Shown here piece by piece: positions 1 through 62,750 of a stretch of DNA of 64,000 bases. Below the pieces are notes generated by a model. It saw only the letters and a program-made list of their open reading frames with translations, did no database searches and had not been told where the DNA came from. The stretch covers positions 372,001-436,000 of the forward strand of contig JARKIF010000024.1 of the NCBI GenBank assembly GCA_029378245.1, read 5' to 3'. Position 1 is the stretch's first letter. Every line of letters begins with the position of its first letter. The position numbers and the translations under genes were made by a program. The stretch comes from Roridomyces roridus. Taxonomy: Eukaryota > Basidiomycota > Agaricomycetes > Agaricales > Mycenaceae.

Positions 1-83
1 TATCCATAAGAACCCGACTCCTGATTTCCAGTGACCAAGTAGAGAATTCAGGATCCTGAACCAATGCCTCTAATGGTGCCTGA

Positions 84-474
84 TCATACTGGGCCTCCTA
101 CCAAGCTCAACTCAGGTTGCGTGATCCCGTCTGAATCAGCTTCCGGTGTTGCAGTGTCAATCTCATCCATCCAGGCTGTGGCATTGTCTGCAACTTCATC
201 AGACCCCTGCTCAAGGAAATTGATCAATTCCTTCAGCTCTGCCTCATGTTCCGGTCGAATGGGTTGATTGTCCTGTCTCGTATGTGGCAACTCTGTGGAA
301 TACAGCCTCAGAGTCTTCAGTTGTCCTTCTATAGACTTTGTTCCGTGCATAAAGCATATCAAATGGAACAGGCCCAAAAGATTCCAGGGCTTGTTTGTTA
401 TGCAAGGGGAGAATAGCTCCAGGCACACATACTTCGGAAACTGTGATTCTCACCCGACTTTTTGATATTGGCAT
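84..474 (-). pseudogene. 3' portion of a split exonuclease-type gene (continues the 2522-4222 gene)
   Basis: Two overlapping minus-strand reading frames together give a coherent segment: VRITVSEVCVPGA, then FGPVPFDMLYARNKVYR, then an acidic tail. This looks like the region that follows the exonuclease domain in large Agaricomycete proteins of the type at 2522-4222. I infer that it is the same gene, cut by the approximately 2 kb insert at 475-2521. The frame changes near 280-300, either through an unseen intron or a frameshift. No complete start or stop can be assigned and the gene probably continues leftward. Family recognition is from memory of the pattern, not from a search. Confidence 0.4.
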
Positions 475-2521
475 AGCATTCGGAATTGGAGCGGTGATGT
501 ATGTGCTCTAAACCTACTATAGAAATCAACCAACTCGAAACAACAAGACCAGATGAGTCTAGGGCTCCGACCCGACCGTCAAAATGACGGGTCAACGAGC
601 CGTCACGACGGGTGCCGGCCCGGCCGTACAGCCCTCTGAAGCCACAATTTTGACGGCCGGGTCCGGGTCCGGTTCCTTGGCTGACGGGGTACCCGTTCCC
701 GGCCGTCGACGGGCCATGACGGGTGGTGACGGGTCCTCGGCTAACTACCTGTGCCGAGCTGCCATCATCACTTGATGCTCCAGGGGTAGCGCACCTGGGT
801 CATCGGCAATCTTCCTGATGGTCCACTACTGCGCTTCTGGAGGCTTCCTGAGTACCAATCCGTAATTTTGACTTCGACATCATGTTCACATCAATCTGAT
901 GGTCGATTTAGCTGGAGGCACGGGCTGTCACCGCTCTAACCCGTCATGACGGCCGTGACGGGTCTGACGGGTACCACCCGGCCGTTTTGAGGCCTCGCAG
1001 CATGGTCTGACGGCCGGGTGGGGCCCGCCCAACCTCCCATGACAGCCATCAGAGCGACGGCCGTCGCCGTCAACGGCCGGGTCAGAGCCCTAGATGAGTC
1101 TCGATACAGACGAATCTCTATCTAAACAACCCAATCACGAAGCTCCGGGGCGAGTGACAACTATATTGACAGCAGGCAAAGGCGAGTATAAGTCCCTAGT
1201 ACAGGGCCTTATGAAAGGTTGTAGGGAATACTGTGATATTGTCTCGATATGATTGGTCGAGTTTTGTATTGCGAATCAAAATCCTTGATGAAAACCAAGG
1301 ATGGCGATTCTAAAGTGTTTTGTAGATTTTAAAGCTTCACAGCTAACACAAAGATAGATTGAGTTTGGCTAAAGCCGGGTTTTTGCAATAAAGCAGGTAT
1401 TTGGGTCTCTCGATCCCTTTTACACTGGTATCTGAAGACGACAGCGACCGATACAACACGGATTTCACAAATTCCAACAATTCCTGAACCAATTCCTGAC
1501 ACTGAACACACAACCTGACCCTAACTGACACACAAACCATACCAAGCCGTAGCAAGCCTTCCAAAGCTGCCACTGAGCTGAAACCCTAATCACAAGCCAA
1601 CTGGCACTCGAACCAACTATGCTTCAAACTCGATTCACACAACAGGAGCCAACAAAACAACAATTAGATTTTCAAGGGCGATGGCTTATTCTACGCAATG
1701 CACCTTCGAAAGCCTCGGACAAATCCCGTAGTCGCAGCTGGTAGCTTGCTAGTGGGGGAAGTATCCGCTGCCCTCTTGGGTAACACTCTATCTACTTTAT
1801 ACATGTCCGGGAATCATATGATAGTACAAATGAATGGCGCAATAATGATGAATCTCCCACATATCCTGAATAGAAATGACCTGATTGGTTGATCTGGCAC
1901 TGGTGCTCAGTCAGCCAGAGCGCCAAGCCATGATTCAGCATGTTATCTCGTGATTCCATCGCTGATCCATGACTCGGACAGTTTGGATATCTTGTATCCC
2001 TTCTTCCCCTCCAGAGTATGGCCTCAAAACGTACTCCCACGTGTTGTAGGTCTCGAACGATACCCATATCTCCCACTCTTGGTCTCGGATACCAGCAGAT
2101 ACTTGACTAAAAGTCCGTATCCGAGCCGGAATCCACTTGTTCCGGCTACTATGTTACTTCCATCGGACCCGTCTCGGCGGTCTGCTCATGTTTCAGGTCA
2201 TTCAGCCGACTTGTCCATCATTCCGTGAACTCCCGAACCTCCGAATTGCACTTGCACCAAGGTTCGAACTGCTGACAATCATACAACGGTTAAGAACTGT
2301 TTAATTGGTGTATCCCATTGGTAAGGCAGGTATCCACACCTCCTACATGTTTCGGAGTGAGTCCATCAGTCGTATCCAGGTAAATACCCTTCAACCTGTA
2401 TAGTACTCTAAAGTATCCACCGTACTGACTGTCTCTGGGCTCGGCATCAGCTCTCGTATTGAGATCATATAGTATGGAAACCACATCTGAAATCGTGCAA
2501 AATACGCGTTTTCAAGGGCAG
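475..2521. other. Insert of about 2 kb inside the exonuclease-type gene; no intact gene
   Basis: The stretch separates two pieces of one minus-strand gene and has no convincing coding frame on either strand. It contains the hAT-type MITE at 560-1092. A weak TGGTATC element at about 1421-1427 resembles a tRNA-iMet primer-binding site, and TTTTCAAGGGC occurs at both 1671 and 2511, which hints at an old LTR element. I could not define LTR ends or a target duplication. Otherwise nothing recognisable. Confidence 0.4.
560..1092. mobile_element. Non-autonomous hAT-type element (MITE), 533 bp, 8-bp TSD GATGAGTC
   Basis: Starts TAGGGCTCCGACCCG and ends CGGGTCAGAGCCCTA, imperfect inverted repeats of about 20 bp. 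It is flanked by a perfect 8-bp direct repeat GATGAGTC at 552-559 and 1093-1100. Both subterminal regions (about 570-760 and 935-1085) are packed with GACGGGT and CGGCCGT motifs in both orientations; the central 150 bp is ordinary sequence. TAG-type ends, 8-bp target duplication and dense subterminal motifs are the hAT pattern. There is no transposase, so it depends on an element elsewhere. Confidence 0.85.
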
Positions 2522-4222
2522 TCAAATTCCATGCTCATCAGCGGTGAGTGAGGAGAGGTGTCCTCGAGCAATCAATTGACCGTCAGGATGGTGTACTGAA
2601 ACCAGTGTCCCAGGGAGTTCATCTTGAGATATTCGGCCAGGAACCTCAGACTTTGCCAGACGGTCATAGATATACAGAGAAGCCAATGCATCCAGAGCAG
2701 CATATTTGATTTGTTCTGGTGTCAGTTCAGTATTGCTCCAATTATTGCTGACTCGAATGGTGCTGCCCCTCTCTGTACCTGCTGTAGCTTTGCTCAGAGT
2801 CTTTCCCAAGATACGTGCGCACAGATCTGCTAGTCCCATTCGAGCGTCTGTGATAACTCTGGCATCCTTGGCCATCTGAGCTAGATCTATGCCTCCTCCG
2901 AATGGGCCAGCTCCAGTCTCTTCTTCAAGACGTTTTAAATCCTGTTTGACTGTGTGACCAGCTTTGATGATTTGATTTGTCTTCAAAAAGCTGATCAGAG
3001 CCCCAGGAAGTTTGCCTTTGAAGTGCTCTATCTGGAAGATGGTCACCCAGTTCTTATATGCAATTTGAATGATCGCAGTTGGCTCCTTGGCTTTCGATCC
3101 GGCACTTGTGTTCACATTCCACTCTGCGTCAAATCCAACAACCAGTCTGTCTTCCGAATCTTCCAAATTGATGTCTGTTGTAATTTTGGCAAGTTCGTCT
3201 TGAACACTAGCAACATCCCGACAGATGCGGACATCTACACCTTCAGGTATATCAAAAACAGGCAAACCAGGATACTTCTCGGTGGCAACAACATCCTGCG
3301 TGAGAGATGGAAAGACACCTTCCAAAAATGATTTATCGGCAGCAGGATTGTCTGTGAACACAGCTTCCGGCTGAGAAAGTCCATAAAGGTCAAGATTTCT
3401 TTTAACCTTTTCCAAGGCTGCTTTGAATTCAACATGAGAACTTGTAGCAACAAAGGCAAGCACCCGTGCCTCCCCAAATTCGTTGGTCAGGGTCAGGGTT
3501 GCAGCAAAGACAGATTCGCCATTAATTTTCATGATCTGCTTGGTTGTCTTGTATGTATGATCAATAGCACCAAGTCGTAGACTTTTCATGGCAGCCTGCT
3601 GGTCCATCTCCCTGCTATGCTCCTCAATGTACAAGTCATACATCACGCGAAGCCAAGCACTGCTAGGAACAAAGCCGCTATATCCTTTGGGGTCATCAAA
3701 ACAACTGAACTCGGTAAACATCAGTGGATTTTCATGGCTTTGGCAAAGCTCAGGATGAGCATTTGCCCAGGAAACCACTCCATCCAGATACTGAGCATGC
3801 AATTTGTCAAAGCGCAGTCTATGCAGAACCTGGAGACTGTTTGAAAACTGCTTTGAACCAAGCCCATAATGAAACACTGTCCTCATCAATTCAAAAATTG
3901 GCTTTGCCATGGCCCCTCGGTGGCTCAGTACAGCTGGAAATTCATCGCGAAGTTGTGCCGGTAAGCTCTGCATGATCCTTGGATCCCAGCTATTGAAAGT
4001 TACTGTCTGTTTATCTGTCTTTGATTTGCATTTGGGACAGTGATATCGTCTGCCAATCATGTAAAAGCATTCATTCATGTCAGCAACCCGACGAGGACAG
4101 GTGTGACCATGATTGTTCAATTGATGTCCACATGTCGGGCACTTGAGATTGACAAAGAAGGCTGGGTCCCAATAGAACAGAAGTGGGTTGTACATGGCTT
4201 CAGCAGATGGCTTGGTCTTCAT
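2522..4222 (-). CDS. Zinc-binding (DUF6729-like), transposase-like and 3'-5' exonuclease fusion protein
   Basis: A continuous 566-codon frame. Residues 18-85 carry a zinc-binding cluster (CPTCG at 28, C42, CPKC at 62-65, then FNSWDPRI) typical of DUF6729. Residues 215-305 look like an RNase H-fold transposase core: IDHTYKTTK with D221 and FTDNPAADKS with D291. Residues 355-525 form an apparently complete DEDDy 3'-5' exonuclease of the WRN/RNase D type: VVGFDAEW (D365, E367), GHTVKQDLKRL (D428) and YAALDALASLYIY (Y507, D511). The ATG at 4222 is only the first one after the upstream insertion; the true N-terminus lies at 17221-18400. The intact active site indicates recent function or expression as a fragment. 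It could be a transposon protein or a host gene. Confidence 0.75.
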   Translation of the reverse strand: MKTKPSAEAMYNPLLFYWDPAFFVNLKCPTCGHQLNNHGHTCPRRVADMNECFYMIGRRYHCPKCKSKTDKQTVTFNSWDPRIMQSLPAQLRDEFPAVLSHRGAMAKPIFELMRTVFHYGLGSKQFSNSLQVLHRLRFDKLHAQYLDGVVSWANAHPELCQSHENPLMFTEFSCFDDPKGYSGFVPSSAWLRVMYDLYIEEHSREMDQQAAMKSLRLGAIDHTYKTTKQIMKINGESVFAATLTLTNEFGEARVLAFVATSSHVEFKAALEKVKRNLDLYGLSQPEAVFTDNPAADKSFLEGVFPSLTQDVVATEKYPGLPVFDIPEGVDVRICRDVASVQDELAKITTDINLEDSEDRLVVGFDAEWNVNTSAGSKAKEPTAIIQIAYKNWVTIFQIEHFKGKLPGALISFLKTNQIIKAGHTVKQDLKRLEEETGAGPFGGGIDLAQMAKDARVITDARMGLADLCARILGKTLSKATAGTERGSTIRVSNNWSNTELTPEQIKYAALDALASLYIYDRLAKSEVPGRISQDELPGTLVSVHHPDGQLIARGHLSSLTADEHGI

Positions 4223-4764: not shown

Positions 4765-4796
4765 TGTTGGAAGGACAAACACGGACGCACCCTGAC
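4765..4796 (+). repeat. copia 5' LTR, first part (32 bp)
   Basis: Matches the first 32 bp of the 3' LTR at 16961-16992. The rest of this LTR lies at 11903-12125 on the other side of the KDZ transposon. ACCCTGAC at 4789-4796 is also the left target duplication of that transposon. Confidence 0.92.
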
Positions 4797-4917
4797 CACC
4801 TGTACCTTCCACCTAAGTAAGCTAGGTAGCCTGGTACCTGTAGCAGTGGTACCAGGCTAAGACGCCCAGTTGCTGGATTTCAGGCATGCTTCCGTTTAAG
4901 CTTCCGAAAAGCTTTGG
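4797..4917 (+). repeat. Left terminal inverted repeat of the KDZ transposon
   Basis: 121 bp starting CACCTGTACC, mirrored at 11774-11894 with one mismatch. It contains an internal palindrome around GCCTGGTACC / GGTACCAGGC (about 4830-4859). The last exon of the 4822-5802 gene lies in it. Confidence 0.95.
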
Positions 4918-5802
4918 GCCGCGTACGAGAACTGGGAAAGCAAAGGAGTTAATAAAAAGACGTCAATAGATGAAGAGACTTACGGAAACCTTTCATGATT
5001 ATCACCCGACACGCTTTTTGGAGCCTCAAGAGTTCGTTGGCGAGGGTGACTGGGTAACGAGTCAGAAAGGGAAAGAGAGGGGTGTCGAATACGTACCTTT
5101 GTCTCGATTCATTCCCCACATCTCGTACATTACCATGAAGTCGGGCGCGCTCTTCCCGAACGCGTGTGCAAGAAAGTCGCCGCCGCCCTCGGACTCGACA
5201 AAATAGGTGCCCGTCTTGTCGTGCGGGTGCGTCCGCGTGAAGGCGGCGTGGCCGATGACACCGGTCTGCTGCGCCAACGCAATCATCTGCATACCCATGA
5301 GCCCAAGGTACGCCGCATCCGAGACGAATTACTTACCATTTGGCCGATCTTCGCAATTGTTTTCTTGGCCACGATCTTTGCCGAGAGGTTGTTGGCCCGT
5401 GCTCCACTCTTCTTGACCGTCCGTTTCTCCTCGAGCTTGGCCAGGAGCTCCTCCTCCTCCTCCTCGGTGTAATCGTCGTAGAGGTGGCGGTTGTTGGCGA
5501 TGTGGGCGTTGAGCTGGGAGCTGTTGAGCTTCTCGCCGCGTGGAAGGTCTGTGGAATCGAGTCAGAGACGTTTTACACGAAAGAAAAAGAGAAACCACAC
5601 GACGTACCAGCATTTACAAGCTCCGCGATATGCGACATCTTCGCGTTGTGGATCTGTTTCTCCCGCGAGCCCTTGACGATGGCCGAGGTCATCATCCCGG
5701 TGATCAAGAGACAAGACACACTAAATCACTCACCTCAACAATGACTTGAGATTCTCCACAACGCGTACATACCCGCCCAATTTGTTTTCGATTCAAATTC
5801 AT
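4822..5802 (-). CDS. KDZ-transposon cargo gene, unknown function (236 aa, six exons)
   Basis: I do not recognise a named domain. Exons on the minus strand: 5734-5802, 5609-5672, 5337-5548, 5097-5286, 4984-5049, 4822-4931; together 711 nt, which stays in frame. The N-terminus has a CTRC pair, followed by MSHIAELVNADLPRGEK, an acidic TEEEEEELLAKLEEKR helix, and RTHPHDKTGTYFVESEGGG. It resembles a highly multiplied Agaricomycete family of unknown role, but ends earlier than I would expect. The last exon reads through the inverted repeat to a stop at 4822, so the gene is probably truncated at the transposon edge. Most splice sites are GT-AG with good consensus; the first acceptor (TCAAG) is weaker. 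Confidence 0.6.
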
Positions 5803-6058
5803 TGTATTCCTCATTTAGAGGCCTCTGACAAAATTCGAGGCCTCCATTGTCCCTCAGTCGCTTGAACGAACAACGTTTCTGCAGCTCGGCAGCCTATTCC
5901 GAGCATGTCCGACAAAGCCGAAACCGGGTTCGTCACCCCATATTCGGGTTCGTCATGCCTTCGAGAAAGGTCTGGCAATTCCAAAGCCGTGTTTCGTCAA
6001 TTCACAAAGAAATTTGAGAGGAAGAACTATTATTGCAATAGTAAAACAACTAATGTAG

Positions 6059-7857
6059 CTAAAGCTCGTCAATCGTACTATACATGGCCATGCCCTCTAT
6101 CCACCGCTCCTTCTCCTTCTCCTCGGCTGCGCGCTGTGCCTTGACCCCGGCGTCGGCATTCTCGAACGCGGCATCCGTCTTGAAGCCGTTCCACAGCCAG
6201 TGGAATAACCCACCCGCCGTGTACTGAGCAAACGAGGTTCGCGTCTCGTTCTTGCCAATCGGGGTATTGGAGTGCTTGACGAGAGCGGAGGGGATGAGGA
6301 CGGTGGACCCTGGAGGAAAACGAATAACAAGTTTGAGATGCCAAAGAATCAGCATCCCACCCTTGTCAGGGTCGAAATCCCCAAGGGCGGTGATGGAGCA
6401 CCAACCCCACGCAAGGTTGGCGAAGTCGACGTGCGGGGCGGTGATTGTACGAGGGCCGAAGTTGAAGGTGGCGCCCGCAAATGCACATCCGGGGAAGTTC
6501 CACCGCAGCTTCCTCCAAGAACGAAGCTTCTCCATCTGTACCTGATAATACAGATAGAGTCGCGGCGCCCACAGCATAAGTAGAGCTGAAGACGATGAGT
6601 GAGGGTAGTGAGCAAAGGGAGGCACGTACAGTTAGCGAAAAGTGCGATCCGTTTGAAGTACTCGTGAGCCATAAGCTCGTCCGTGAGCTGTGTATTCGTG
6701 ACGTTGTTACGTAGCTCAACCGGCTCCGTCTGCCCGCTCCCGAAAGACGGCCCACGCGAGACGGCTGCAAACGAGGTCTGCGCGCGTCGATGGTGGAGGC
6801 GATCACGCGTGAGACACAAGCGCGGAAGACGCTCCTGCATCATCGTGTGTGCACCGCCGTGGACCTCTGGCCAGTCTTCGTCGTTGGGACGGCCACCGAG
6901 TACAGCGATGACGCGGCGGTGGGCATCGAGGATGGGGATTGTAAGTCTGCGAAGGAAAGATCAGTCGAGCAAGAATGAATGAGGAAACAAAAACACGCAC
7001 ATGCCCAGCCAAGCCACATACATGAATCCCGTCATCCCGACCATCCTGTCAATCTCCTCCTGCGTGTATTCCCGTCCTCCCATCCCACTCCCTTCGAGAA
7101 CGGCCTTGTTGAGGGCCTCAAACTCGTCTTGAGAGTAGACGCGCCCTCCGATGGCAATTTCGATTGGGGGAGGATCAAGTGCGAGTGGGGCGTTTCGGAG
7201 CCCGAGCCAGGAGGGTTTGGTGTGAGGGAGTGCTGTGCCGTCGACGCCGAGGTGCAGCGCTGAGGACTTGGCCTCTGCGATGCGCTTGTGGTGCACGGGC
7301 TTGAGAACGGGGTCGGTGGAGGCGAGTTCAGCGGCTGCGAGGCGTTTCTTACGACGCCGGGCATTGCCATGGGCCTTATCGTTCTGAAGGGCTGACATTT
7401 TGGCGCCTGGTGAAGTGGAGACGGGTGGTGGAATGGGTGTGGGCGTAGGGAGGGGAGGTGGGTGCAGGATCGACTCCGGCTCGAGAGAGAGGTCCGCGGC
7501 GTATTCTGTGAGGTCATCCAGGTCGTCGGCAGCATTTGAAAGGGCTTGCTCGATGATAGCTTCTTGAATGCGAGCACCCGTGTCGAAATCCAGTGAGGCG
7601 GTGACAGCGCGTTTCAAAGCAAAGTCGAAGGCGGAGAACTCCTTGCCGTTACAGAGGGTGCGTCGTCCTGGTCAATATGTGAGTCTATTCCAGATGTAAT
7701 AGAAGGAGAAAAAGAAGAGAAAAGCTACATATGAAAGGTGCAGTGGCCGACGCGAGCTTGGGAGTTCCAGAGGATGAATCTCTTGCTCTCCAGTTTAAGG
7801 CATGCAGTAGAAACATAGGGAAACAAAAAGGAAGAAGTTGGAAGACGTACCAGCCAT
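6059..7857 (-). CDS. TET/JBP-family 2-oxoglutarate/Fe(II) dioxygenase (about 505 aa)
   Basis: Enzymes of this family oxidise 5-methylcytosine or thymine bases in DNA. Exons on the minus strand: 7851-7857, 7001-7667, 6630-6946 and 6059-6585, which join in frame (1518 nt). The long first intron could hide an extra small exon. The C-terminal half has the double-stranded beta-helix signature: APHVDF gives the Fe-binding HxD (about H382, D384), the distal His is in LVKHSN (about H435), and the 2-oxoglutarate-binding Arg is in ETRTSF (about R446). GWCSITALGDFDPDKGG lies between them. The N-terminal half is basic and proline-rich. The gene diverges from the transposase gene, with only 137 bp between start codons. 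All catalytic residues are present, so activity is plausible. Confidence 0.88.
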
Positions 7858-7994
7858 TGTGTGGAAAGAGTTGTGGTCGTGGTGGTGGTGAGGTGGCAAC
7901 GCGACGCGTTTATTTGGCCACAACAACTCGATTGGGATTAGGTTAGGGTTAGGGTCAGCCACCTCCTCCAAACAAATCTCGAGTCCTCCTCGCC
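7858..7994. promoter_or_regulatory. Shared divergent promoter region of the TET and KDZ transposase genes, with TTAGGG repeats
   Basis: The 137 bp separating the two start codons contain TTAGGTTAGGGTTAGGGT at 7938-7955, that is about three telomere-type repeats, the motif usual in fungal telomeres and in some fungal promoters. Use of one short spacer for both genes implies coordinated expression, which is inference. Confidence 0.5.
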
Positions 7995-10900
7995 ATGAGT
8001 GGACGCAACGGCGGCGTGAAGCAAAGCCACGCCTCCTCCGCCAAGCTCAACATCCTCGGCAGTCGACGCACTGTCCCCGGTCAAGCCCCTCGTTTCCACA
8101 ATCGCACTTTGGGCCCGCAGGCCATCGACAACCTCAGATCTCAGAGGAGTGACGAAATGAGAGAGCAGCTCACTGGTGCGAGCACTATTCATTCAAGTTG
8201 TACCCTTACTGACCTTGCCCCAGGAATGGATGGCAAGCAGCGAGCCAACCTGGATGATTTACGCCGCCGGGCATTGGACGACAACTATTCCCCTCCTGCT
8301 CTAACCTCCACTCTCGAGCAAGACGTGTTGGACGGCTCCGAACGTCTGAATCTCAGCCACGCCGGAGGGGAGCTCAATCTCCCGGGTGAAGGGGTGTTTC
8401 TCGGTTTGGAGGAGGATTTGACACATGAAGTGCGATCACAGAGCAAGTCAGTGTTTTCTCTCTCAAATTCCGGCCCCGACTTACATGCATAAGGCGATAC
8501 GACTGGCGCACCCGCACGGACCAAACCGAACGGCGTAACCAGGCCTTCCAAAGCCAGATGGAAGGTCTCACCGACGCGTACATGCGTTTTTGTGCCGAGG
8601 ACGAGCTTCGTGGGCGTCATGGAGGGAATCGTTGGGAGGAGCTGGAGCTACGTCGGCAGACACGCGCTGGAGATTCCCCGACCGTCGAGGCGGTGTACGA
8701 GATTAAGGTGGTGGATTCCTTCGGTGTGTCGTGTTTTATTCTTTCCTCTGATCCTCCTCACTTACAATGCTTCAGAGACGCGTACAGTGGATGTTGACGT
8801 ATTGGACGCTCAAGGTCGCCTCAACATCGCCAACCTCTTTGTCGCTGGCCTCATGCCCTGCGCCCCATACACACCACATGTCGCTTTCACCATCCGTGTC
8901 CTCGAATCATATCGGACGCTACACGCTCGCTGCCCACAGCTTGCGATACATGCCTATGTGAAAGCCCTCTGCGACCAGCACGAGGTAAGTCTATTTCTGG
9001 CCATTCCTTCGTTGCCTGACCAAGGCCCAGGTGGAATATTATCCGTACCTCCGCCAACAATTCTCCAATGCGTACGACGTGTACCTGGAAATTCGTCGTC
9101 GCACGGACGCGCGGGTGATGAACGCGCTCGGCCGAGACGATTCATGGCGCCTCAAACACGCATGCCCAGCCTGTACCTACAAGCTGGAGGGTGAGGACGA
9201 CCTTATCTTTGATATGCTGACCACGATGGACGGCAACGACTCTCTCAAGCGCGTCCTCCGTCGTTCCAAGGTCGAGCAGGACGACGAGTCCTCCGAGCCG
9301 ACACTGGGTCCCTCGCGCGAGCGCGTCGACAATCGCGATGCTGGCGACGGGTATTTCATTGATAGGGGGATGGTGGAGGAGTGGGCGAAGTGGAGGCTGG
9401 CGGATATCCTGCCCACGGAGGCCAATTCGGTGAGGAAACACTCACCGTCTTCCTTTTCATCACTGACGTACCTTTCCTTTAGGACGAAGACAATCCATGT
9501 GCAGACAGATGGAAGAATATGATTAACGACGTCACGTCGAAGATGTGGGGCATCTTCGATGAGACGGGCATTTTCCTCGCCCTCTGCCGCCATGGATTCG
9601 TGTTGGTCATTGCCGACATGATTCGGAGCGGGGAATTGTAAGTCGAATCCCAATTTTATACATCTATCTAACTAACAACTTTATCAAAGGGCCAAATACC
9701 CGCTGGCGGTAGTCAAGCTCCTCCTCGACACATTCGGCTTCAAGCTCGGCGCTGGGTACGACGTCGGGTGCCATTTCGGCACCACCGTCAACAACAGCGA
9801 CCTCGGCGAGCAGGCAAGAGCTCAGGGCTTCAAGAGCCTTGTCGGGTCCTTCCATGGGCATGCACACAACCGGTTGTGCCAGCTCAATTTCCTCGCCACC
9901 TACGTGAAGGGCCTTGGCATCGAGGACCTCGAGGGCTGCGAGCGGTTCTTCTCGCGTTCGAACGGGCTTGCCAAGTCATGCCGATACGCAAGCCGTTTCC
10001 ACCGCCAGCAGGAGATCAGCACCTACTGCAAGCAGATCGACGCCGTCGAGACGTACGCTAATCTGAGTAAGTCATGCTTCCTTCTCTCCAATACCTAAAG
10101 CTCACAACGTCTTACAGGCAACTTCCTCTGCACCAACTACCGTCAAGCACTCAATATATTGAAGACGGAGCCCGTGCTGCACGCCTGGATGGAACGCGAG
10201 GGGATCGAGGACGTTGAGACGTTCCACGAGTGGCTGAGGGAGGAAAGGGAGTATCTTTTGGGTCTCAAGGCGGCGTCGAGGAAGGATGTGGAGACCCTCG
10301 AGATGGAGTACGTCCACAAACTCAAGAAGCTGCAGGACAGCACGTAAGTGTCATTGCTCGCCTTTGTATCCGAGCTGACCAGATCCTAAGAGCAAAGCAT
10401 GCAACTCTCCTCGGACTGGCACGACAAGCGAACCGTGACGACGGCGACTTTGTACCCGGTGTGCGGAAGGAAGACGTTGCGAGGCGACACGCAAAAGACC
10501 GGGTGGATGGAGACCGGGAGGCGGTGCGGGAGCTCGAGCGCCTACTCAAGGTATCCCAAACGTGGACTGTGTCCTCGCCAAAGTGGGCGGAGACGGTGGT
10601 GGCGATCCAGAGGCGGGACTACCAAGCAGCGCTGAACGCGCTTGAGCTTGTGGTGGTGGAGCGCATCTTTGAGCTCACGAAGGTGAATCGGTCCCAAACG
10701 GGTAAGTCGTGTCAATGTTATTGATGCACACCGAGTATCTAACAAATGTAGGATACAAGATGCGGACACACATCGGCAAGGCGCTTCAGGCGCGTTCAAA
10801 GGCCGTACGCAATGCCATTGAGCGCTACAATGCCGCTGCCCGCGAGTTGACCCCTCCAAAGCCCGACCTCACCTGGAATCAAGTCGTCGAGTACGCCTTC

Positions 10901-11542
10901 CTCGGCGACTTTGACTTGCTGCGGGATGCGGAGGCGGTGGTCCTGAGTCGCCCATGGACACGCCCAGCATATCGGATGTACATGGACAATTATTTCAAGA
11001 CCCTGCGCGCGAGGGAGGAAATCAAGCGACTCAATGTGGAGATACCCCGAGTCATCACGTGGATCCAAGACGAAACACGTGTGCTGGAGAAGAAGGAGGA
11101 GGCGCTGGAGCGGGCGGAGGACGGGACGGATGAGGAGCAGAGCCGGAGCTGGCATTTGGCAGTGCAGGTGCGGCTGTACCGCCAGCGGCGGGGTCGATTC
11201 AATGCAGGGCATATGGCGCGCTTCCGCAAGCTGGCGGGTACTCCCGGCTTCACGGGCTCAATACGGCCAGGACGTGCAGTGGAGGTGACAGAGTCGAGGC
11301 GCGCCCAGCGTGCTGCTGACGGTGAGCTGCTGTCCAGGGTAAATGGGGACTCAGAGGACGAGATGGAGGGAGTGGAGGAGACGCCAGCGGCAGCAGATGC
11401 ATCACCGACAGGAGAGGATGGTGTTGATGACGATGAGGAGGGTGAGGATGCACACGATGAGGAGGTGGGGGAGCTTCTGTACCACATCTCCCGTATTGGG
11501 CTGGATGATGGGGACCGTCCACGTGCCGATGACGACGGTTAG
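7995..11542 (+). CDS. KDZ (Kyakuja-Dileera-Zisupton) transposase, 1033 aa in ten exons
   Basis: Exons: 7995-8175, 8224-8446, 8494-8723, 8776-8984, 9031-9429, 9483-9637, 9690-10066, 10118-10343, 10391-10701, 10752-11542. They sum to 3102 nt with every junction GT-AG and in frame. An N-terminal cysteine-cluster region ends in CPAC (about 326-329). The DDE/RNase H core shows LTTMDGNDSLKR (D348), GAGYDVGCHF (D490), GSFHGHAHNRLCQ and IEDLEGCERFFSRSN (E546), all KDZ signatures. The C-terminus is strongly acidic. It catalyses movement of the surrounding 7.1 kb element. No stop codon or frameshift interrupts the spliced frame, so the gene appears intact. Confidence 0.95.
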
Positions 11543-11773
11543 TGGTGCGCAATAGCGTGCCGTATCGACCTTTTTAATGCTGTATTTTTCCCCCCTATTT
11601 TATTCTGTATTTCACACAATTTTATGTCCACTTTCCTTTTTGGGACATCGGGAGTCGGGGGCGCGCGTCGGTGATGGCGCCGACCTCGGCATCAGTGGGA
11701 AATGATCTTCTTCGGCACCACGGCAATGCCTTTGTGCTTTCTAAGTCTACAGAAGCTTATCGCAAGCATATGT

Positions 11774-11894
11774 CCAAAGCTTTTCGGAAGCTTAAACGGA
11801 AGCATGCCTGAAATCCAGCAACTGGGCGTCTTAGCCTGGTACCACTGCTACAGGTACCAGGCTACCTAGCTTACTTAGGTGGAGGGTACAGGTG
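11774..11894 (-). repeat. Right terminal inverted repeat of the KDZ transposon
   Basis: Reverse complement of 4797-4917 over 121 bp, ending GTACAGGTG directly before the right copy of ACCCTGAC (11895-11902). Confidence 0.95.
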
Positions 11895-11902
11895 ACCCTG
11901 AC

Positions 11903-12125
11903 GTGTACTACTGACGTGGAAGTACTGACACGTAGAGTATGGTTTAAACACTCGCTGTACATACTCACATTTACCCATACTGACTTGCATGTACTTGTAT
12001 CGGTGTTATTCAGTGCATGTTCCCTAATTCTTACTTATGTATGGCTGTACCTTGTTTTTGTATTTAAGTAGCTAACTACGACGAATCTCAACTAAGTCCT
12101 TCTCCCACATTTTCATCCTTCTTCA
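11903..12125 (+). repeat. copia 5' LTR, remaining part (223 bp)
   Basis: Matches 16993-17215 of the 3' LTR with two differences by eye (G/A next to the KDZ site and A/G in GTAGCTAACTACG). Ends CTTCA; the adjoining GGTTATGGGCCCC is the likely primer-binding site. Confidence 0.93.
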
Positions 12126-12168
12126 GGTTATGGGCCCCGAGTTCAACTAAATCCACCAACCGAATTTA

Positions 12169-15100
12169 TTGCACCTCAACAACCAACCTCTGCTATCTAC
12201 AATGTCCACCATCGCCCCGAACTCCAAGGCCGCCGAATTCTTTGTACGGCTCCCGAAATGCGAAGCCGACGGCGCCAACTGGGCGGTGTTCAAGAACCGC
12301 TTCCTCTACGCTGCTGCCGCCGCCGGGCTCTCTCAACACTTGGAGAGCAGCCACTTGCCGCCGATCCCGCCCACTCCGGTCACTCCTTTGTCGACCCCTG
12401 CGGACATCACTGCGTACGACAACTTCGTTCGCGTGGAGGCTGGATATAGGTCAGGTGAGGCCATCATCAAACAAGCTATTGCCGCAACGATCCCTGACTC
12501 ACTGTTTTTGCGTGTCATGGGGGAGCGGCGAGCTTCGGGCCTCTGGACAAAGGTGGTGAACGAGTTCGAGCAGAAGTCGAGAATGGTTACTGTGGATTTG
12601 CGGCGCAGGCTCCAGGATGAGCGCTGTGCCGAGAATGGGGATGTTAGGGCTCACCTCGCAAAGTTGCAGGCACTTCGCGTCGACCTTGTCTGCATGGGCG
12701 CCGATCCCGGCGACGAAAACCTCACCGCCATTATCCTAGGGTCGTTACCGGCATCATACGACCCATACCTCGCTGCCCTCACGGCCACATCGTCCCTCAT
12801 GGGTACGACCATCTCCCCCGACACACTCATCAGCGCGCTCTCGCAGGAGCACGACCGCCGGGCTATCAAGTCGAAGTCGAAGAAGAACGACTCGGACGTC
12901 GCGTTCGCCGTCGGCGGACGTAAAGCCGGCAAGAAGACGTCGAAGAACGTCGAATGCTACAACTGCCACAAGAAGGGGCATGTTAAAGCAGAGTGCTGGG
13001 CGGCGGGCGGTGGGAAGGAAGGCCAGGGACCGAGGGGAAAGGGAAAGGGACGCGGGAGTGGGAAGGGACGCGAGGATGCAAACACCGCGACGGATATCGG
13101 CGGTGTATGGATGGCGCAGGTCGATTCGGATGACCGCGCATGGATTGCTCACGCCGAGCAGAACGTCTGGCTGTTCCGGACGGAACAAGACGTGTTTGGC
13201 GGCGTGGTGACGGGTGCGGGTGTGGAGTGCGATGGCGCATCTAGCCCATGGCTCTCGGATTACGACGAAGACGAGTCTAAAGACGATTCAGTCAGCAACA
13301 TGTCGGTACCGGAGTTATTGAACAACTCACCGACACCGGATCCGATCGAGACGAACATAGAGGACAATGAGAGTGACTGCGGGTCGATGCCCGAGTTGCA
13401 GACGGTGTCCGAATCAGAGGCTGGGGACATCGCTGAGTCCCCCGAATTTTCCTGTGCACACAGCCTCACTCACGATCCCGTCGACGATGATGCAACCACA
13501 GATGCACAGACGTCGCAGACATCTGAACACGGCACCGAGATTGCCGACTGCCTACAGACGGTCATCAACGAATGGCTCGACAACATCGAGCCCTACGATG
13601 CACCGCTTACCTCCTCGTTCAAGACAGCGATGCTCGCTAATGAGGACGGCCCGATGGACACCATGACCGAGCTATACGACTCGGGGGCATCATCCCACAT
13701 CACACCATATCGGCATCGACTCCTCAACTACATTTCGATCGCACCACGGTCAATCACTGCCGCGGATAACGGCTCGTTCCAGGCCATTGGGATGGGCGAC
13801 ATGCACGTCTGGCTGCCGAATGGAAAAGGCGTCAGGACGAAGATATTGCTGCGTGGAGTGTTATATGCACCGAAAATCGGTTTAACCCTTGTCTCGATTG
13901 CGAAGATAACTGATGCGGGTTTTGCAGTCTTGTTCCGCGAGAGCTTCTGCAAGATATTCGATAAGCACCAGAAGCTTGTCGGCATCGTGGACAAGACGAA
14001 GGGAACTTACCGTGTGCAGTCTCCATTCAATTGGGAGACGGTCACTGCCGCATCCGCCATCGAAACAGTCTCGCTCGAAGACTTACACCGCCGCATGGGT
14101 CACATAGCCCCGGACGCCGCCAAACACCTGGTCTTGGAAGGCCTGGTAACCGGCGTCAAGCTCGACCCGACATCGAAACTCCAATCGTGCGACTCGTGCG
14201 CATACGCCAAGACAACGCGGAAGCCGATCGCAAAGGAACGCAAGGCTCCGCGCTCGACAGCCTTGGGGGAGGTCATATTTTCGGATGTATGGGGGCCGTC
14301 TCCCGTCGAAACTATCAATCGGCGTGAGTACTATTCAAGCTTTACCGACGATTTCACTCGCTGGTCCAGACTCTATCTCCAGCGGACCAAGGACGAGACT
14401 TTCGGCTCGTACCAGTCTTACGAAGCGTGGCTCTCAACCCAGTTCGGCGCCAAAATCAAGAAGCTCCACTCCGACCAGGGAGGCGAGTACTGGAGCGGGG
14501 AATTCGACGCTCACCTTGCGAAGAACGGCACCGAACGAGGCTTCACCGTGCACGACACCCCCGAACACAACGGCGTTGCCGAGCGACTCAATCGGACGCT
14601 GTTGGAGCGTGTGCGTGCGATGCTGCACGGCAGTGGGTTGCCGAAGTTTCTTTGGGGCGAGGCCATCGCGCATGCCGTGTACTTGAAGAACTGGCTATCC
14701 ACCAGCGCGAATGACGGGAAAACGCCATACGAGATGGTGTACGGGCGGAAACCAAGCATCGCCCGGCTCCCCGAGTTTGGAGCGCGTGTCTGGGTCCATG
14801 ACGCGAAGGCGAGCAAGCTTGAGGGACGCGGAAGGGAAGGTCGATGGATGGGATTTGATGACGTGAGCAGCGGGCATCGAATCTATTTCGAGGGGAAGCG
14901 CACTGTCGCTGTGGAGCGGAGCGTTAAATTTGACAGGAATGACGAGGTGGTACCTCTCCCAGACGATCTGCGGATTGAGGGGGAGGATTCGGATGACAAT
15001 CAGCCATTGTCTGGGTTTTCAAAACCAACCACGCACCTTCCGACTCCTCCTCAGACACCTGCGGCTTCGACTCCAACTATCCCGACCCAAACGACTCCGC

Positions 15101-16953
15101 AAACTCCCACCAACGTGTTGCCTACGACAGGCACATTACCGGCTTCTCCTTCGATTGCGAGGCTACGCCAACAGCTTGCGCTCACCGACCCACTCGGATC
15201 CGACTTCGAAGGCGATGCTGGACGCAATGAGGGTGGGACTAGCGAAGGACCGAGACGTAGCACGCGCGAACGACGACAGGCGACCATTTTTCCGACCAGC
15301 GGCACGACATATCTCCAGCGGGCTAGGGCCGACGAGGCACCCCACGTGGCGGCGCGTGCCGAGCTTCCTGACGACTGGGAGATGGTGGATGTGCTGGAGC
15401 ACCACCTCGCCGCCGCGACGTCGACTGCTGAGGCCTTAGACCCATCGTGGGAGGAAGCAAGGAACCGGTCCGATTGGCCGCATTGGGATGCGGCGATCAA
15501 AGCCGAGCTTACCTCACTCAAAGCCGCCGGCACTTGGACCGTCGTTCCACGACCTGGCGACCGCAACGTCGTTGACTGCAAATGGGTCTTGCGCATCAAG
15601 AAGAACGCGGCGGGGGAAATCGAAAAATACAAGGCACGTCTCGTTGCACGTGGCTTTACACAGGTTCACGGTGTCGATTACTACGAGACTTTTGCCCCGA
15701 CCGCCAAGATTGCCTCCATCCGTCTTGTTCTCGCCATCGCCGCACGCAACGACTGGGACATCGACATGTTCGACTTCAACAGTGCGTACCTCAACGGGGA
15801 ATTGGATCCCGACGAGGAGATCTACATGGAACAGCCTCCGGGTTACGAATTCGCGGATCGGGCCGCGAATGTTCTCAAACTCGCGAAGGCGTTGTACGGG
15901 CTGAAGCAGGGTGGCAGGAAATGGTACGAGACGCTTTCTCGCTGGCTTTCAGAGCTAGGCTTTACACAGTGCGCGTCCGACCATGCTGTTTTCTATGCTC
16001 GTGACGAGCACGATCTCACCATCCTCGCCATCCATGTGGACGACTGCACCATCACGTCCAGCTCCCCGGCGCTCCTCGTGTCGTACAAGACTCGTATTGG
16101 CGAACGTTTCAAGATGACGGATCTTGGGCCTATCAGTTGGCTCCTTGGCATCGAAATCCGGCGCGACCGCGAAGCACGTACAATCTCGCTCTCGCAGCAG
16201 ACTTACATCGAGTCTATTCTCAATCGGTTCAACTTTGCCGACTCGAAACCCGTCGCAATGCCCTTGGACCCGAATGTCCAACTTTCCAACGAGCACCGCG
16301 CCATCAGCATAGCCGACATTGCCGCAATGAAACGTGTCCCATACCGCGAGGCCATTGGCTCGCTCATGTGGGCATCCGTTGGAACACGGCCCGACATCGC
16401 ATTTGCGGTGACGAAGCGTGTATTTCGGTACCTCCTTGGCACGAAGACGCTTCGGCTCACGTACGGCGCGGGGAGGAAAGGGTTGGAGGGATATTCGGAT
16501 GCGGACGGGATGTCCCAAGACCACAGGCGCGCTATCTCTGGTTTTGCTTTCCTTATTGACGGTGGCGCCATTTCGTGGAGTTCCAAGAAGCAGGAAATTG
16601 CCACCCTCTCAACGACAGAGGCTGAGTACGTTGCATTGACACACGCCGCAAAGGAAGCTGTGTGGCTTCGCGCGCTCATCGGCGAGCTTTTTCGACCGCT
16701 CGAGCGCCCCATCACCCTCCATGGCGATAATCAAGGCTCGATTGCCCTCGCACACTCTGATATCGGCCAGTTTCACGCACGCACCAAGCACATCGACATC
16801 CGGTATCATTTCATCCGATACGTTGTCGAAAACGGGACGATCCGACTTGTCTATTGTCCCACGGCAGACATGGTCGCCGATTGCCTGACCAAGGCGCTAC
16901 CAAGCACGAAGGCCAAGCACTTCGCTGCAGCGCTCGGGCTGCGTACGGTTTGA
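12169..16953 (+). CDS. Ty1/copia gag-pol polyprotein (1594 codons, intact)
   Basis: One open frame holds all domains in copia order. Gag occupies roughly residues 15-250, then a zinc knuckle CYNCHKKGHVKAECW near 263. Protease: LYDSGASSHI near 503. Integrase: HRRMGH and CDSC zinc site near 640-680, then catalytic D in IFSDVWG, D in LHSDQGGEY and E in HNGVAERLNR. Reverse transcriptase from about 1120: FNSAYLNGEL, LYGLKQ, and an active-site box HVDD in place of the usual YVDD. RNase H near 1440-1590: YSDADG, TLSTTEAEY, HGDNQGSI and ARTKHIDIRYHF. The first ATG may not be used; MSTIAPNSK at 12202 is an alternative. No stop or frameshift, so the polyprotein could be functional. Confidence 0.95.
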   Translation: MHLNNQPLLSTMSTIAPNSKAAEFFVRLPKCEADGANWAVFKNRFLYAAAAAGLSQHLESSHLPPIPPTPVTPLSTPADITAYDNFVRVEAGYRSGEAIIKQAIAATIPDSLFLRVMGERRASGLWTKVVNEFEQKSRMVTVDLRRRLQDERCAENGDVRAHLAKLQALRVDLVCMGADPGDENLTAIILGSLPASYDPYLAALTATSSLMGTTISPDTLISALSQEHDRRAIKSKSKKNDSDVAFAVGGRKAGKKTSKNVECYNCHKKGHVKAECWAAGGGKEGQGPRGKGKGRGSGKGREDANTATDIGGVWMAQVDSDDRAWIAHAEQNVWLFRTEQDVFGGVVTGAGVECDGASSPWLSDYDEDESKDDSVSNMSVPELLNNSPTPDPIETNIEDNESDCGSMPELQTVSESEAGDIAESPEFSCAHSLTHDPVDDDATTDAQTSQTSEHGTEIADCLQTVINEWLDNIEPYDAPLTSSFKTAMLANEDGPMDTMTELYDSGASSHITPYRHRLLNYISIAPRSITAADNGSFQAIGMGDMHVWLPNGKGVRTKILLRGVLYAPKIGLTLVSIAKITDAGFAVLFRESFCKIFDKHQKLVGIVDKTKGTYRVQSPFNWETVTAASAIETVSLEDLHRRMGHIAPDAAKHLVLEGLVTGVKLDPTSKLQSCDSCAYAKTTRKPIAKERKAPRSTALGEVIFSDVWGPSPVETINRREYYSSFTDDFTRWSRLYLQRTKDETFGSYQSYEAWLSTQFGAKIKKLHSDQGGEYWSGEFDAHLAKNGTERGFTVHDTPEHNGVAERLNRTLLERVRAMLHGSGLPKFLWGEAIAHAVYLKNWLSTSANDGKTPYEMVYGRKPSIARLPEFGARVWVHDAKASKLEGRGREGRWMGFDDVSSGHRIYFEGKRTVAVERSVKFDRNDEVVPLPDDLRIEGEDSDDNQPLSGFSKPTTHLPTPPQTPAASTPTIPTQTTPQTPTNVLPTTGTLPASPSIARLRQQLALTDPLGSDFEGDAGRNEGGTSEGPRRSTRERRQATIFPTSGTTYLQRARADEAPHVAARAELPDDWEMVDVLEHHLAAATSTAEALDPSWEEARNRSDWPHWDAAIKAELTSLKAAGTWTVVPRPGDRNVVDCKWVLRIKKNAAGEIEKYKARLVARGFTQVHGVDYYETFAPTAKIASIRLVLAIAARNDWDIDMFDFNSAYLNGELDPDEEIYMEQPPGYEFADRAANVLKLAKALYGLKQGGRKWYETLSRWLSELGFTQCASDHAVFYARDEHDLTILAIHVDDCTITSSSPALLVSYKTRIGERFKMTDLGPISWLLGIEIRRDREARTISLSQQTYIESILNRFNFADSKPVAMPLDPNVQLSNEHRAISIADIAAMKRVPYREAIGSLMWASVGTRPDIAFAVTKRVFRYLLGTKTLRLTYGAGRKGLEGYSDADGMSQDHRRAISGFAFLIDGGAISWSSKKQEIATLSTTEAEYVALTHAAKEAVWLRALIGELFRPLERPITLHGDNQGSIALAHSDIGQFHARTKHIDIRYHFIRYVVENGTIRLVYCPTADMVADCLTKALPSTKAKHFAAALGLRTV

Positions 16954-16960
16954 GGGGGAG

Positions 16961-17215
16961 TGTTGGAAGGACAAACACGGACGCACCCTGACATGTACTA
17001 CTGACGTGGAAGTACTGACACGTAGAGTATGGTTTAAACACTCGCTGTACATACTCACATTTACCCATACTGACTTGCATGTACTTGTATCGGTGTTATT
17101 CAGTGCATGTTCCCTAATTCTTACTTATGTATGGCTGTACCTTGTTTTTGTATTTAAGTAGCTAGCTACGACGAATCTCAACTAAGTCCTTCTCCCACAT
17201 TTTCATCCTTCTTCA
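16961..17215 (+). repeat. copia 3' LTR (255 bp)
   Basis: Starts TGTTGGAAGG after the purine tract GAGGGGGAG and ends CTTCA before the right target duplication GTCGG (17216-17220). Confidence 0.95.
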
Positions 17216-17220
17216 GTCGG

Positions 17221-34895: not shown

Positions 34896-36230
34896 ATGCC
34901 CGTCGCCACTACGTCCTCTGAAGGCTACTTCACCTACGAGCCCTCCTCTCCCACTTCTTCATCATCCTCATGCCCGTCTTCTCCCTCGTCGTCTTACCGC
35001 CGACCCAAGACATCACCGCCGCTCGACGTCTGCGTACAGATCAATGCGGACATCCGAGCGAACCCGACCCTCAACTCTCCGTACTTTGATCTCGGCGGGC
35101 ACATTATGAATCGGGAATATTGCATGCAGAACATCATCTATCCCGACGAGACTCACGAAACGGCTACTCTGCTCGACGTCGGCGTGCGCGACCTCCTCCC
35201 TGCTCCAGTCCCTCCTCCGGTACCACCTCCTAAATCCCGCACTTTCGAGATCAAGGAGACGCCACAGAAGCACGGCCTCGGGATGTTTGCTGCGCAGAAC
35301 ATACCTGCCGGTGGACTCGTTGCTGTCGAGCATCCGACTGTCATACTGCCATATGTCCTCGGAGTCGAGCCGGACTGCGAGGCCGAACTATATGCGGAGC
35401 TCCTCGGGAGGTTGTCTGCCTCGACAGCTGAACGATTTTTGTCTCTGGCGAATTGCAAACCGGGCTCGTCGCTCAAGGGGATTATGAATACGAATGCCGT
35501 CGCTATTGCACTGGATGTTCCCGACGTTCCACATGCGGAGCTCTCGACGCATCGTGCGGTGTTTCTCAACATGAGTCGGTGTAATCATAGGTTCGTCTTG
35601 CTCCGTTCTTCATGTAAACTCCTTAATTCATTCCGTTCGGGTTTTAGTTGCAGTCCAAACGCTGCCTGGCACTATGACTCACCTTCATTTTCCCTCTCCC
35701 TCGAGGCCCTCCGCCCCATCGAAGCCGGCGAGGAAATCACCGTCGCCTACATCACAACGACGTGCAGCGCAGCCGAGCGCAGCGCCCGCCTCGAGGCCAT
35801 GTATAATTTCACATGCAGCTGCACCATCTGCTCTCTGCCCCCACTCGCCCTCGCCCAGAGCGACGCCGCACGTGCCGAACTGGCCGTATTCTGGCGTCAT
35901 TCGAATCGCATCCCGTCATTCGAGGCGTGGTGCCGAGACCCGCGGATGGGCGATACAGTGCTGATTGACGCGCATAAACGCGCGCTGGACCTCATCGAGC
36001 ACGAAGGACTGCAGGTGCTCGATTACGGCAAACACCTCGATGCGATCGCGATGGGGTACGGCGCGTTGAGGAATGTGTATCTGTTTAGGGCGTGGATGTG
36101 GAGAGCGAGGGAGGCGAGGCCGCTTGGGAGGCTTGATGCGGCGAGGGTGATGCAAAAGTGGATTCGGGAGCCTGAGACATTTCCAGTTTGGGGGTGGAGG
36201 AGGTTTTCGCGGGGGCCGAGGTCGAGTTGA
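34896..36230 (+). CDS. SET-domain protein (425 aa)
   Basis: Two exons, 34896-35590 and 35648-36230, with a 57 bp intron (GTTCGT...TTTTAG) whose removal creates the motif NMSRCNHSCSPNA, the diagnostic SET box. The first half of the domain begins near FEIKETPQKHGLGMFAAQNI. A downstream Y-x-x-x-T region (EEITVAYITTTCSAAERSARL) and a post-SET-like CSCTIC cluster complete it. SET proteins methylate lysines of histones or other proteins; the layout resembles the SMYD/SET5-like fungal family rather than a dedicated histone enzyme. The N-terminus is a Ser/Pro-rich low-complexity tail. The intron length is a multiple of three, so unspliced message would also read through. Confidence 0.85.
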   Translation: MPVATTSSEGYFTYEPSSPTSSSSSCPSSPSSSYRRPKTSPPLDVCVQINADIRANPTLNSPYFDLGGHIMNREYCMQNIIYPDETHETATLLDVGVRDLLPAPVPPPVPPPKSRTFEIKETPQKHGLGMFAAQNIPAGGLVAVEHPTVILPYVLGVEPDCEAELYAELLGRLSASTAERFLSLANCKPGSSLKGIMNTNAVAIALDVPDVPHAELSTHRAVFLNMSRCNHRFVLLRSSCKLLNSFRSGFSCSPNAAWHYDSPSFSLSLEALRPIEAGEEITVAYITTTCSAAERSARLEAMYNFTCSCTICSLPPLALAQSDAARAELAVFWRHSNRIPSFEAWCRDPRMGDTVLIDAHKRALDLIEHEGLQVLDYGKHLDAIAMGYGALRNVYLFRAWMWRAREARPLGRLDAARVMQKWIREPETFPVWGWRRFSRGPRSS

Positions 36231-45180: not shown

Positions 45181-45493
45181 TCGAGGTATCGCTATGAAGC
45201 TATGAATTGGCTATGAAACGGTAAACCACAAGAGTAAGTATGGATAGGCGCCAGGCGCGTGCTTCACCCAAGACGTCGCCAACGAGGAGACCTTTGAGAA
45301 GACCTACCACATTCAAGTTGTGAGAATTCGTGAGTGGAAGCATCCTTACTGGTGTGGATAGATATAGATTGATCGGGAGGACATCAGTGGACACGCGAGT
45401 TGACGGAGATTTATGTAATCCACCTAGTCTCTCTTGAGTCTTGACAGACTAACGCTCCGTAACCTCCTTTCCTCCTTTGGCTTTTCACCCTGG

Positions 45494-46994
45494 ATGGCAT
45501 CCGTCCTTCGCTCGCGCCTCGCTGAGCTCGATTGGCGAATCGCGCTCTTGCAGGCAGAACGCGACACGGTGGCTACACGACTGGCCGCGGTCGTCTACCC
45601 GGTTCTGAGCCTTCCAAACGAGATTGTCACCCAAATCTTTCTGCACTATGGCGATGGGACGGCTAACTTGAAGGCCGCTCTGTGTGTAGCCAGCGTGTGC
45701 AGAGTGTGGCGCGCAATCGACCTGTCTACCTCTGGGCTGTGGAAGCGCTTTAATTTGCACCCACGACTAGCTGACTGCGCAGAGACTTGGCTGGCGCGTT
45801 CAGGTGTACTTGCTTTGGATGTACATTTGATATTGGACGACGAGCTCATTCTCCAGGCTCTCGAGCAGTATCTACCTCGGGTGGAGAATCTCACACTTGT
45901 CTTTGATCCTCCAGTGCTACGACGCACAGCTCAACTCGGCGGTCCGTTCACAGCGCTGGAATCGCTGTCTTTGAAATCGGGTGGCACAATACACCACGTC
46001 ATGCTCGACGTTCCTGTTGTGTTGCATCCTGCATTCGCTGATGCACCGAACCTGCGCTCGGTGTCGATAGACGGGATACTGCTCGACAACTGGCAGGACG
46101 CCTTCCCTTGGACACAGCTCACCAAGCTGGAAACTCGTTTCATCGACATCGAGTGGTGTCTACAGCTTCTCAAGCACACGCCCTGTCTCGAGATCCTCAT
46201 CTGTGCATTGGATTTGAATGTGTCTTCATTGACCACCCCACACCGACTCCTCCCTCGGCTGCACACCATCGACCTGCGAGAGAACCGCACCAACAAATTC
46301 CTCGCGTACCTCACACTTCCCGCACTCGATCGAATGTATTTGGCCTCCGTGACAGACGGATGCAGTCGAAGACATCGAGGATCTCATCGAGCGGTCCCGA
46401 TGCGCGCCGACGGTTCTCCACATGAGCCTCCGACGCGACCTCGAGTTTTACGAGTTCCGAGAATGTCTCTGGACGCTTGGCGGATCGGTGGGGCATTTGG
46501 AGCTCGAGGGACCGGGTGGGTCGAGTGATGCGTTTAACAGGCTTTTCGCCGCTTTATCCTCCCATGTGCACTCGGGCTCGGACGACGACGAGGATTTGAT
46601 GCTGCCGCAGCTCGTATCGTTGGCGATTACGAGCTGTAGTACTGACATCCAGCTGCGACCTTTGGTTAATATGCTCGAGGCGAGGAGGCTGCGGCGGAGC
46701 GCGGTCAAGTTGGATTCATTCACCTTGTCTTTTTCGCATCATCAGCGAGGGTTGGATGAGAAGGAGAGCGCAGACGTGGATATGGTGGAACGGGATGCTG
46801 CTATTCGAGGGCATATTGGACGACTTGCGCGACTGCGCTCACAGGGACTCGAGTTGGAGTTGAGCTCGGCTTTTGAGTGGTGCGGTACAAATGTTGACTC
46901 GCATATGGTTCGTTTGGGTTTTTTTCTTGGCCTTGAAAGGGATTCATGTATTTTGCAGGTTCAGGAGATTAACACGCTGAGTTCCGGGAGCTGA
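45494..46994 (+). pseudogene. F-box/LRR protein gene with a one-base frameshift
   Basis: Starts MASVLRSRLAELDWRIALLQAERDTVATRLAAVVYPVLSLPNEIVTQIFLHY, the coiled-coil plus F-box N-terminus very common in Agaricomycetes, followed by CVASVCRVWRAIDLSTSGLW. About 290 residues continue as Leu-rich repeats to ASVTDGC near 46365. There the sense frame moves by one base to AVEDIEDLIERSRCAPTVLHM and continues to a short terminal exon (VQEINTLSSGS, stop 46994) after an intron near 46909-46959. Either a one-base insertion inactivated the gene or the base is a sequencing error. The probable role, if intact, is substrate recognition in an SCF complex. Confidence 0.7.
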
Positions 46995-56502: not shown

Positions 56503-56510
56503 CTCGCAAT

Positions 56511-62745: not shown

Positions 62746-62750
62746 CCTAG

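Follow-up and report, generated by a model that had tools for sequence, protein, structure and literature searches.

Why a cut-and-paste transposon should carry a gene for a DNA-demethylation-type enzyme, and what the element gains from it, is the question raised by a 64,000-nucleotide stretch of the Roridomyces roridus genome (Mycenaceae, Agaricales; assembly GCA_029378245.1, contig JARKIF010000024.1, positions 372,001 to 436,000; hereafter the window). In the window, a KDZ transposon at positions 4797–11894 encodes a transposase and, on the opposite strand, a putative TET-type dioxygenase. We consider it probable that this is a recent cut-and-paste KDZ element, internally shortened, whose own TET enzyme acts against silencing. 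The transposase would bind the terminal inverted repeats, probably via a palindrome centred 47 bp inside either end, and would excise the element and reinsert it with an 8-bp target duplication. The TET enzyme would oxidise 5-methylcytosine (5mC) in the element itself or in the DNA around it, and a silenced copy could then be transcribed or transposed. C-numbers below denote contigs of the assembly that holds the window.

The element is bounded by 121-bp terminal inverted repeats at 4797–4917 (forward strand) and 11774–11894 (reverse strand), which are 99% complementary with one mismatch, and it is flanked by the 8-bp target-site duplication ACCCTGAC at 4789–4796 and 11895–11902. Both features had been described in an earlier note made from the sequence alone, and both were recovered. 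The insertion split the 5′ long terminal repeat (LTR) of a forward-strand copia element into its first 32 bp (4765–4796) and the remainder (11903–12126). The two halves rejoin into a real LTR, which matched the 3′ LTR in the window (16961–17216) at 254 of 256 positions, and the copia identity of the interrupted element was given by the RVT_2 and copia-type gag domains in its open gag-pol frame (1594 residues, 12169–16953, forward strand). When the element and one duplication copy were removed, 22 of the 40 matches listed for the joined flank crossed the joint, all at 99–100%; one of the 22 was the window's own copia 3′ LTR, and the empty site reconstructed in the note was confirmed in this way. 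Because the flanks rejoin cleanly and the copia LTRs are nearly identical, the copia insertion is taken to be young and to have preceded that of the KDZ element, in agreement with the recent insertion proposed earlier.

Exact 8-bp duplications were found in seven of nine autonomous-type copies (the window, C458, C157, C460, C78, C469, and C151), and the duplication was absent or inexact in C323 and C124. The inverted repeats of these R. roridus elements span 121–404 bp. At one end of the C323 copy (265789–277485), which has no target-site duplication, the terminal repeat occurs a second time, over 152 bp. Since 100-base flanks were identical at the paired loci C13/C430 and C480/C266, the assembly seems to contain part of both haplotypes.

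The transposase gene (7995–11542, forward strand) was modelled as ten predicted exons encoding 1033 residues without a break, and all nine introns have GT..AG borders. A 979-residue model lacking the first 54 residues matched the Pfam KDZ domain (PF18758) over 217 of 217 profile positions (E 1.1e-72), which, together with the inverted repeats and the 8-bp duplication, supports the KDZ identity that the note had assigned. Two of the putative catalytic residues named there, D348 and D490, are present; residue 546, given as glutamate, is leucine, and E547 or E550 nearby is a candidate for the third acidic residue.

A sub-terminal palindrome with 12-bp arms lies near each end of the element (4827–4859 and 11832–11864), its axis 47 bp from the respective end. 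When the outermost 120 bp of six element families were searched for their best palindrome, the axis fell at position 47.0 in five, with arms of 12–26 bp containing some mismatches, and was matched by none of 300 base shuffles in each. In C151 the free search was unsuccessful, with a score of 6 at another centre that was reached by 107 of 300 shuffles; counted at axis 47, this end showed 16 of 24 pairs. Every position was then scanned in 16 further stretches with an expected right end, and the CACC terminus was the best 47-centred palindrome position in 10 of them; no palindrome-marked end was found within the fetched stretches of the other six (C401, C453, C235a, C480, C112, and C469b). The ten positive stretches amount to eight distinct sequences, one identical to C151 and others near known families, and therefore are not ten independent tests. 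Among the 644 CACC sites on both strands of the window, only the two element ends scored 16, the next best scoring 12.

All 19 aligned ends (15 distinct) had 16–23 of 24 pairs at the 47-bp axis. In the 15 distinct ends, with G-T counted as a pair, 83.8% of cells paired, compared with 40.5–48.2% after sliding by one to three columns and 69.2% after the 3′ letters were redealt, and 16 of 26 pair positions changed on both sides. With Watson-Crick pairs only, five group representatives showed 76% pairing, compared with a mean of 52% and a maximum of 64% when arms were exchanged between groups. These results indicate that the symmetry of the palindrome is maintained by compensatory changes. Symmetry kept despite sequence change is the pattern expected of a protein-dimer site, and the transposase may well bind this candidate palindrome. 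Its fixed position provides a concrete candidate transposase binding site for KDZ elements, and the 47-bp axis offers a sequence-independent way to look for KDZ ends. No paper on a palindrome in KDZ ends was found among the matches listed in the open-licence literature.

The dioxygenase gene (6059–7857, reverse strand) encodes 505 residues in four predicted exons (7857–7851, 7667–7001, 6946–6630, and 6585–6059), with the N-terminus modelled on the NCBI annotation of a sister copy. As the note had stated, the gene is open, and the HxD motif (H382, D384), distal H435, and R446 are present. By predicted fold, CcTet, NgTet1, and TET2 ranked above other dioxygenases as the clear best matches, which supports the proposed TET-type enzyme; the link to TET comes solely from this fold comparison. 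Sequence identity to CcTet was 14%. The window protein did not match the Pfam Tet_JBP profile, which 2 of 32 homologs matched (best E 0.075); a single-sequence search of solved structures found nothing at a cutoff of E 1, and a profile of the 32 homologs gave nine weak matches to solved structures, with no TET among them. The closest database protein among the matches listed was P0001, from R. roridus, and each of the 120 homologs listed of 317 bears the name Mycena or Roridomyces. With ungapped counting from HxD, position H+5 was Asn and H+11 was Cys in all 98 of the 120 homologs with a readable motif. A Kyakuja-borne AG-type TET was ruled out, for which Asp at H+11 and Gly or Ser at H+5 are expected, and a PE-type TET (HxE) was ruled out by the HxD motif.

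A third gene (ORF3) survives in the element as a remnant truncated on both sides (4982–5698, reverse strand); its full-length relative, P0121, is a 646-residue hypothetical protein annotated in C458 on the TET strand. A Pfam search of the third gene gave no match. One homology search returned five homologs including itself, candidates probably having been crowded by low-complexity words, and a second, regional search returned itself alone. Its structure model was poor (mean predicted local distance difference test score [pLDDT] 49.4). Merged genome searches gave 76 TET, 60 transposase, and 40 third-gene loci, the TET matches being a lower bound and haplotig loci possibly counting twice. An opposite-strand transposase lay within 7 kb of 28 of the 76 TET loci (two of them, on C323, sharing one transposase), against about 0.7 expected by chance, and no TET locus had a same-strand transposase only. 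The third gene lay within 10 kb of 25 TET loci, on the TET strand at 23 of these (chance about 0.7), and both partners were near 17. The module of transposase, TET, and third gene recurs in the genome.

Sister copies of the window element were compared at C458, C323, and C24b. The C458 and C323 copies, both 11.5 kb long, are 99.2% alike and about 97% identical to the window element; their inverted repeats measure about 265 bp. The transposase and TET genes are both open in the window copy and in C24b, which is without the third-gene end of the element. At C458, the transposase is open and the TET gene has a stop near codon 97 unless this part is spliced out, as in the NCBI model; at C323, there is a stop in the transposase and the TET gene is frame-shifted. 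The ratio of nonsynonymous to synonymous differences per site (pN/pS) between the window and C458, C323, and C24b was 0.19, 0.16, and 0.20 for the transposase and 0.11, 0.11, and 0.12 for TET, which indicates that both genes are under purifying selection. Such selection on TET suggests that a useful activity has been favoured. Among pairs of the three sister copies, the TET ratio was 0.09–0.32, from small numbers. Synonymous differences per site between the window and C458 were about twice as high in TET (41.3/365) as in the transposase (36.0/723), and recombination between families possibly lies behind this excess.

The same genome contains relatives of the element without an intact TET gene. 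A KDZ element with a transposase, the third gene, and 404-bp inverted repeats was found at C78 (30465–39567) and C469 (1272.4–1281.9 kb; sequence compared at the ends only). These are two insertions with different flanks and different 8-bp duplications, GGATCAGA and TTTCCCAG, and their ends were 99.7–99.9% alike over the 760 and 907 bases compared. No TET was found within the C78 stretch, nor at C78 or C469 in the genome search, itself a lower bound. In another KDZ element, at C124 (1108258–1115874) and C151 (880–8493), an N-terminal remnant is all that was seen of TET; the two copies are 99.8% identical, with one flank common to both contigs and the other different. In addition, a non-coding 3-kb family occurs on C279, C24, C2, C179, C13, C309, and C430 (seven copies fetched, some allelic). 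Its inverted repeats measure about 450 bp and, over their outer 124 bp, resemble those of the TET element at 82%; an exact duplication occurs at C13/C430 only, four of five loci being without one. This family is probably mobilised by a KDZ transposase.

The benefit of the TET gene would be anti-silencing, and several observations count against this proposal. The TET-less element at C78 and C469 moved recently, and TET in cis is therefore dispensable. When the four TET-bearing copies were pooled, private C/G transitions numbered 50 at 980 CpG positions and 21 at 2455 others, an excess of about sixfold; the window copy contributed 30 and 13 of these, leaving 20 and 8 without it. Methylation-linked decay therefore probably reaches TET-bearing copies, and because of this excess, self-protection is not demonstrated. 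The CpG observed/expected ratio of TET-less C78 (1.03) equals that of the TET-bearing elements measured (0.93–1.03 in C157, C460, C458, and the window). Pairs among the three sister copies gave transposase pN/pS values of 0.61–3.7, from few changes. With regard to the enzyme itself, Foldseek template modelling scores to CcTet were low (0.34–0.38 by query), the predicted structure had a mean pLDDT of 67.9, and the His of the GGH motif, near-invariant among homologs (111 of 113 with the motif), is Met in the window element's family. Finally, according to PMC8889193, only 4 of 46 TET genes are expressed in Laccaria.

CpG content was rejected as a sign of self-protection on the basis of the equality with C78. 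One copy of the 3-kb family had a ratio of 0.19, and the CpG-transition excess within that family was not significant (p 0.11). In the window element, the ratio was 1.05 in exons and 0.62 in introns; coding status is thus a confounder, and CpG content gives no clean evidence on protection.

The strongest alternative, possible though not what we expect, is that TET acts diffusely, oxidising 5mC genome-wide without targeting its own element, any effect on the element being incidental or indirect. The 76 TET-like loci and the CpG decay in TET-bearing copies fit such an activity, as do reports from Laccaria and Coprinopsis that place oxidised methylcytosine over both retrotransposons and DNA transposons (PMC8889193, PMC12730594). 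However, diffuse activity alone would poorly maintain a TET gene that is linked to a divergent transposase at 28 loci and is under apparent purifying selection inside the element.

It is also conceivable, though unlikely, that the dioxygenase acts on a substrate other than 5mC, such as N6-methyladenine (6mA), thymine, or RNA. The low identity to CcTet, a sequence profile that matches no solved TET, and the Met in place of a near-invariant His would agree with this, and CMD1, of the same fold group, performs other chemistry on 5mC (PMC12730594). On the other side, TET enzymes clearly head the fold comparison, and the Asn at H+5 shared by all readable homologs corresponds to hTet2 Asn1387, for which PMC11040006 describes a contact with N4 of 5mC and a clash with 6mA.

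That TET is a passenger merely tolerated by the element appears improbable. The two near-identical TET-less insertions at C78 and C469 and the N-terminal remnant at C124/C151 speak for it, whereas the TET pN/pS against the window copy points to constraint at least equal to that on the transposase.

The note had called the element structurally complete, which had to be abandoned because longer sister copies exist. Compared with the 11.5-kb copies, the window copy has lost about 4.4 kb internally, in two stretches of about 1.2 kb after element position 121 (junction 4917/4918) and 3.24 kb after position 902 (junction 5698/5699). Both junctions fall within the third gene, on the TET strand, and only the middle of this gene is kept; clear microhomology was not found at either junction. 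For two predicted frames (320 and 182 residues) located in the 3.24-kb stretch of C458, Pfam returned nothing significant. As part of the anti-silencing reading as a whole, and with the same degree of confidence, we regard the window copy as an internal-deletion derivative of the 11.5-kb KDZ element that kept its ends and two genes. The opposite order, a 7.1-kb ancestor whose longer descendants acquired inserts, would accord with both genes being open in the window and C24b, both broken in C323, and the TET stop in C458, but is very improbable given that the ORF3 remnant begins and ends at the two junctions, that many other modules of the genome have an ORF3 relative beside them, and that the repeat of the longer copies, about 265 bp, is symmetrical.

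We further put forward, as a speculative and rather doubtful extension, that Mycenaceae KDZ elements form a three-part system comprising a transposase that reads the symmetric signal at 47 bp from either end, a fourth type of TET selective for 5mC, and a third protein with whose help both activities are steered to the element. If this were true, natural copies lacking TET or the third gene would be ready-made tests of each part.

Elsewhere in the window, a 566-residue open frame with DUF6729 and 3′-5′ exonuclease domains lies at 2522–4222 (reverse strand), and two others, with SET and F-box-like domains, lie at 34896–36230 and 45434–46528 (both forward strand). In window 1–4000 and 56001–64000, the CpG observed/expected ratio was 0.61–0.77 per 4 kb, under that of the remainder of the window.

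Among known systems, KDZ1, KDZ2, and KDZ3 of Cryptococcus neoformans are described in PMC12810828 as elements of about 9–11 kb with 139–241-bp inverted repeats that were shown to jump, with duplications of 8 bp for KDZ1 and 4–8 bp for KDZ2 and KDZ3. KDZ1 resembles the window element in its long inverted repeats and 8-bp duplication; the text of that paper does not contain "dioxygenase", has "TET" only in a reference title, and uses "palindrom-" solely for a restriction site. The TET-positive Kyakuja/Zisupton elements of Agaricomycetes (Kojima 2025, PMC12730594) likewise combine a KDZ-type transposase with a TET/JBP-type dioxygenase and have CA..TG ends. Unlike the window element, with its 8-bp duplication and 121-bp repeats, Kyakuja-1_LB and Kyakuja-2_LB have 7-bp duplications and no inverted repeats, and Kyakuja was dropped as a firm label on these differences. 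An 8-bp duplication with inverted repeats is a Zisupton feature shared by the window element, a comparison made by the ends alone. The enzymes differ as well: at 14% identity, two pocket positions, G331 and D337 of CcTet from Coprinopsis cinerea, correspond to Asn and Cys here (counted from HxD, ungapped), and the Kyakuja-borne AG-type enzymes have Asp at H+11 (CcTet-337) and Gly or Ser at H+5. The recurring third gene of the R. roridus elements also sets them apart from the published Kyakuja/Zisupton. The word "Mycena" is absent from the running text of PMC12730594, supplement and figures aside, and the matches listed in the open-licence literature included none about TET transposons from Mycena.

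Complete TET-positive transposons from eleven lineages were published in 2025 (PMC12730594), so elements of this kind are known, and this, with the Cryptococcus KDZ elements that jump, weakens the note's description of the copy as unusual. What is new compared with these systems is a divergent TET group, a recurring three-gene module, TET-less relatives that were recently mobile, and the sub-terminal palindrome. According to PMC12730594, the function of transposon-borne TET enzymes has not been experimentally validated, and their role for the elements that host them is a question on which the variants in this genome bear: since one genome holds TET-bearing, TET-less, and third-gene-less elements, some of them recently mobile, a direct within-species comparison is possible.

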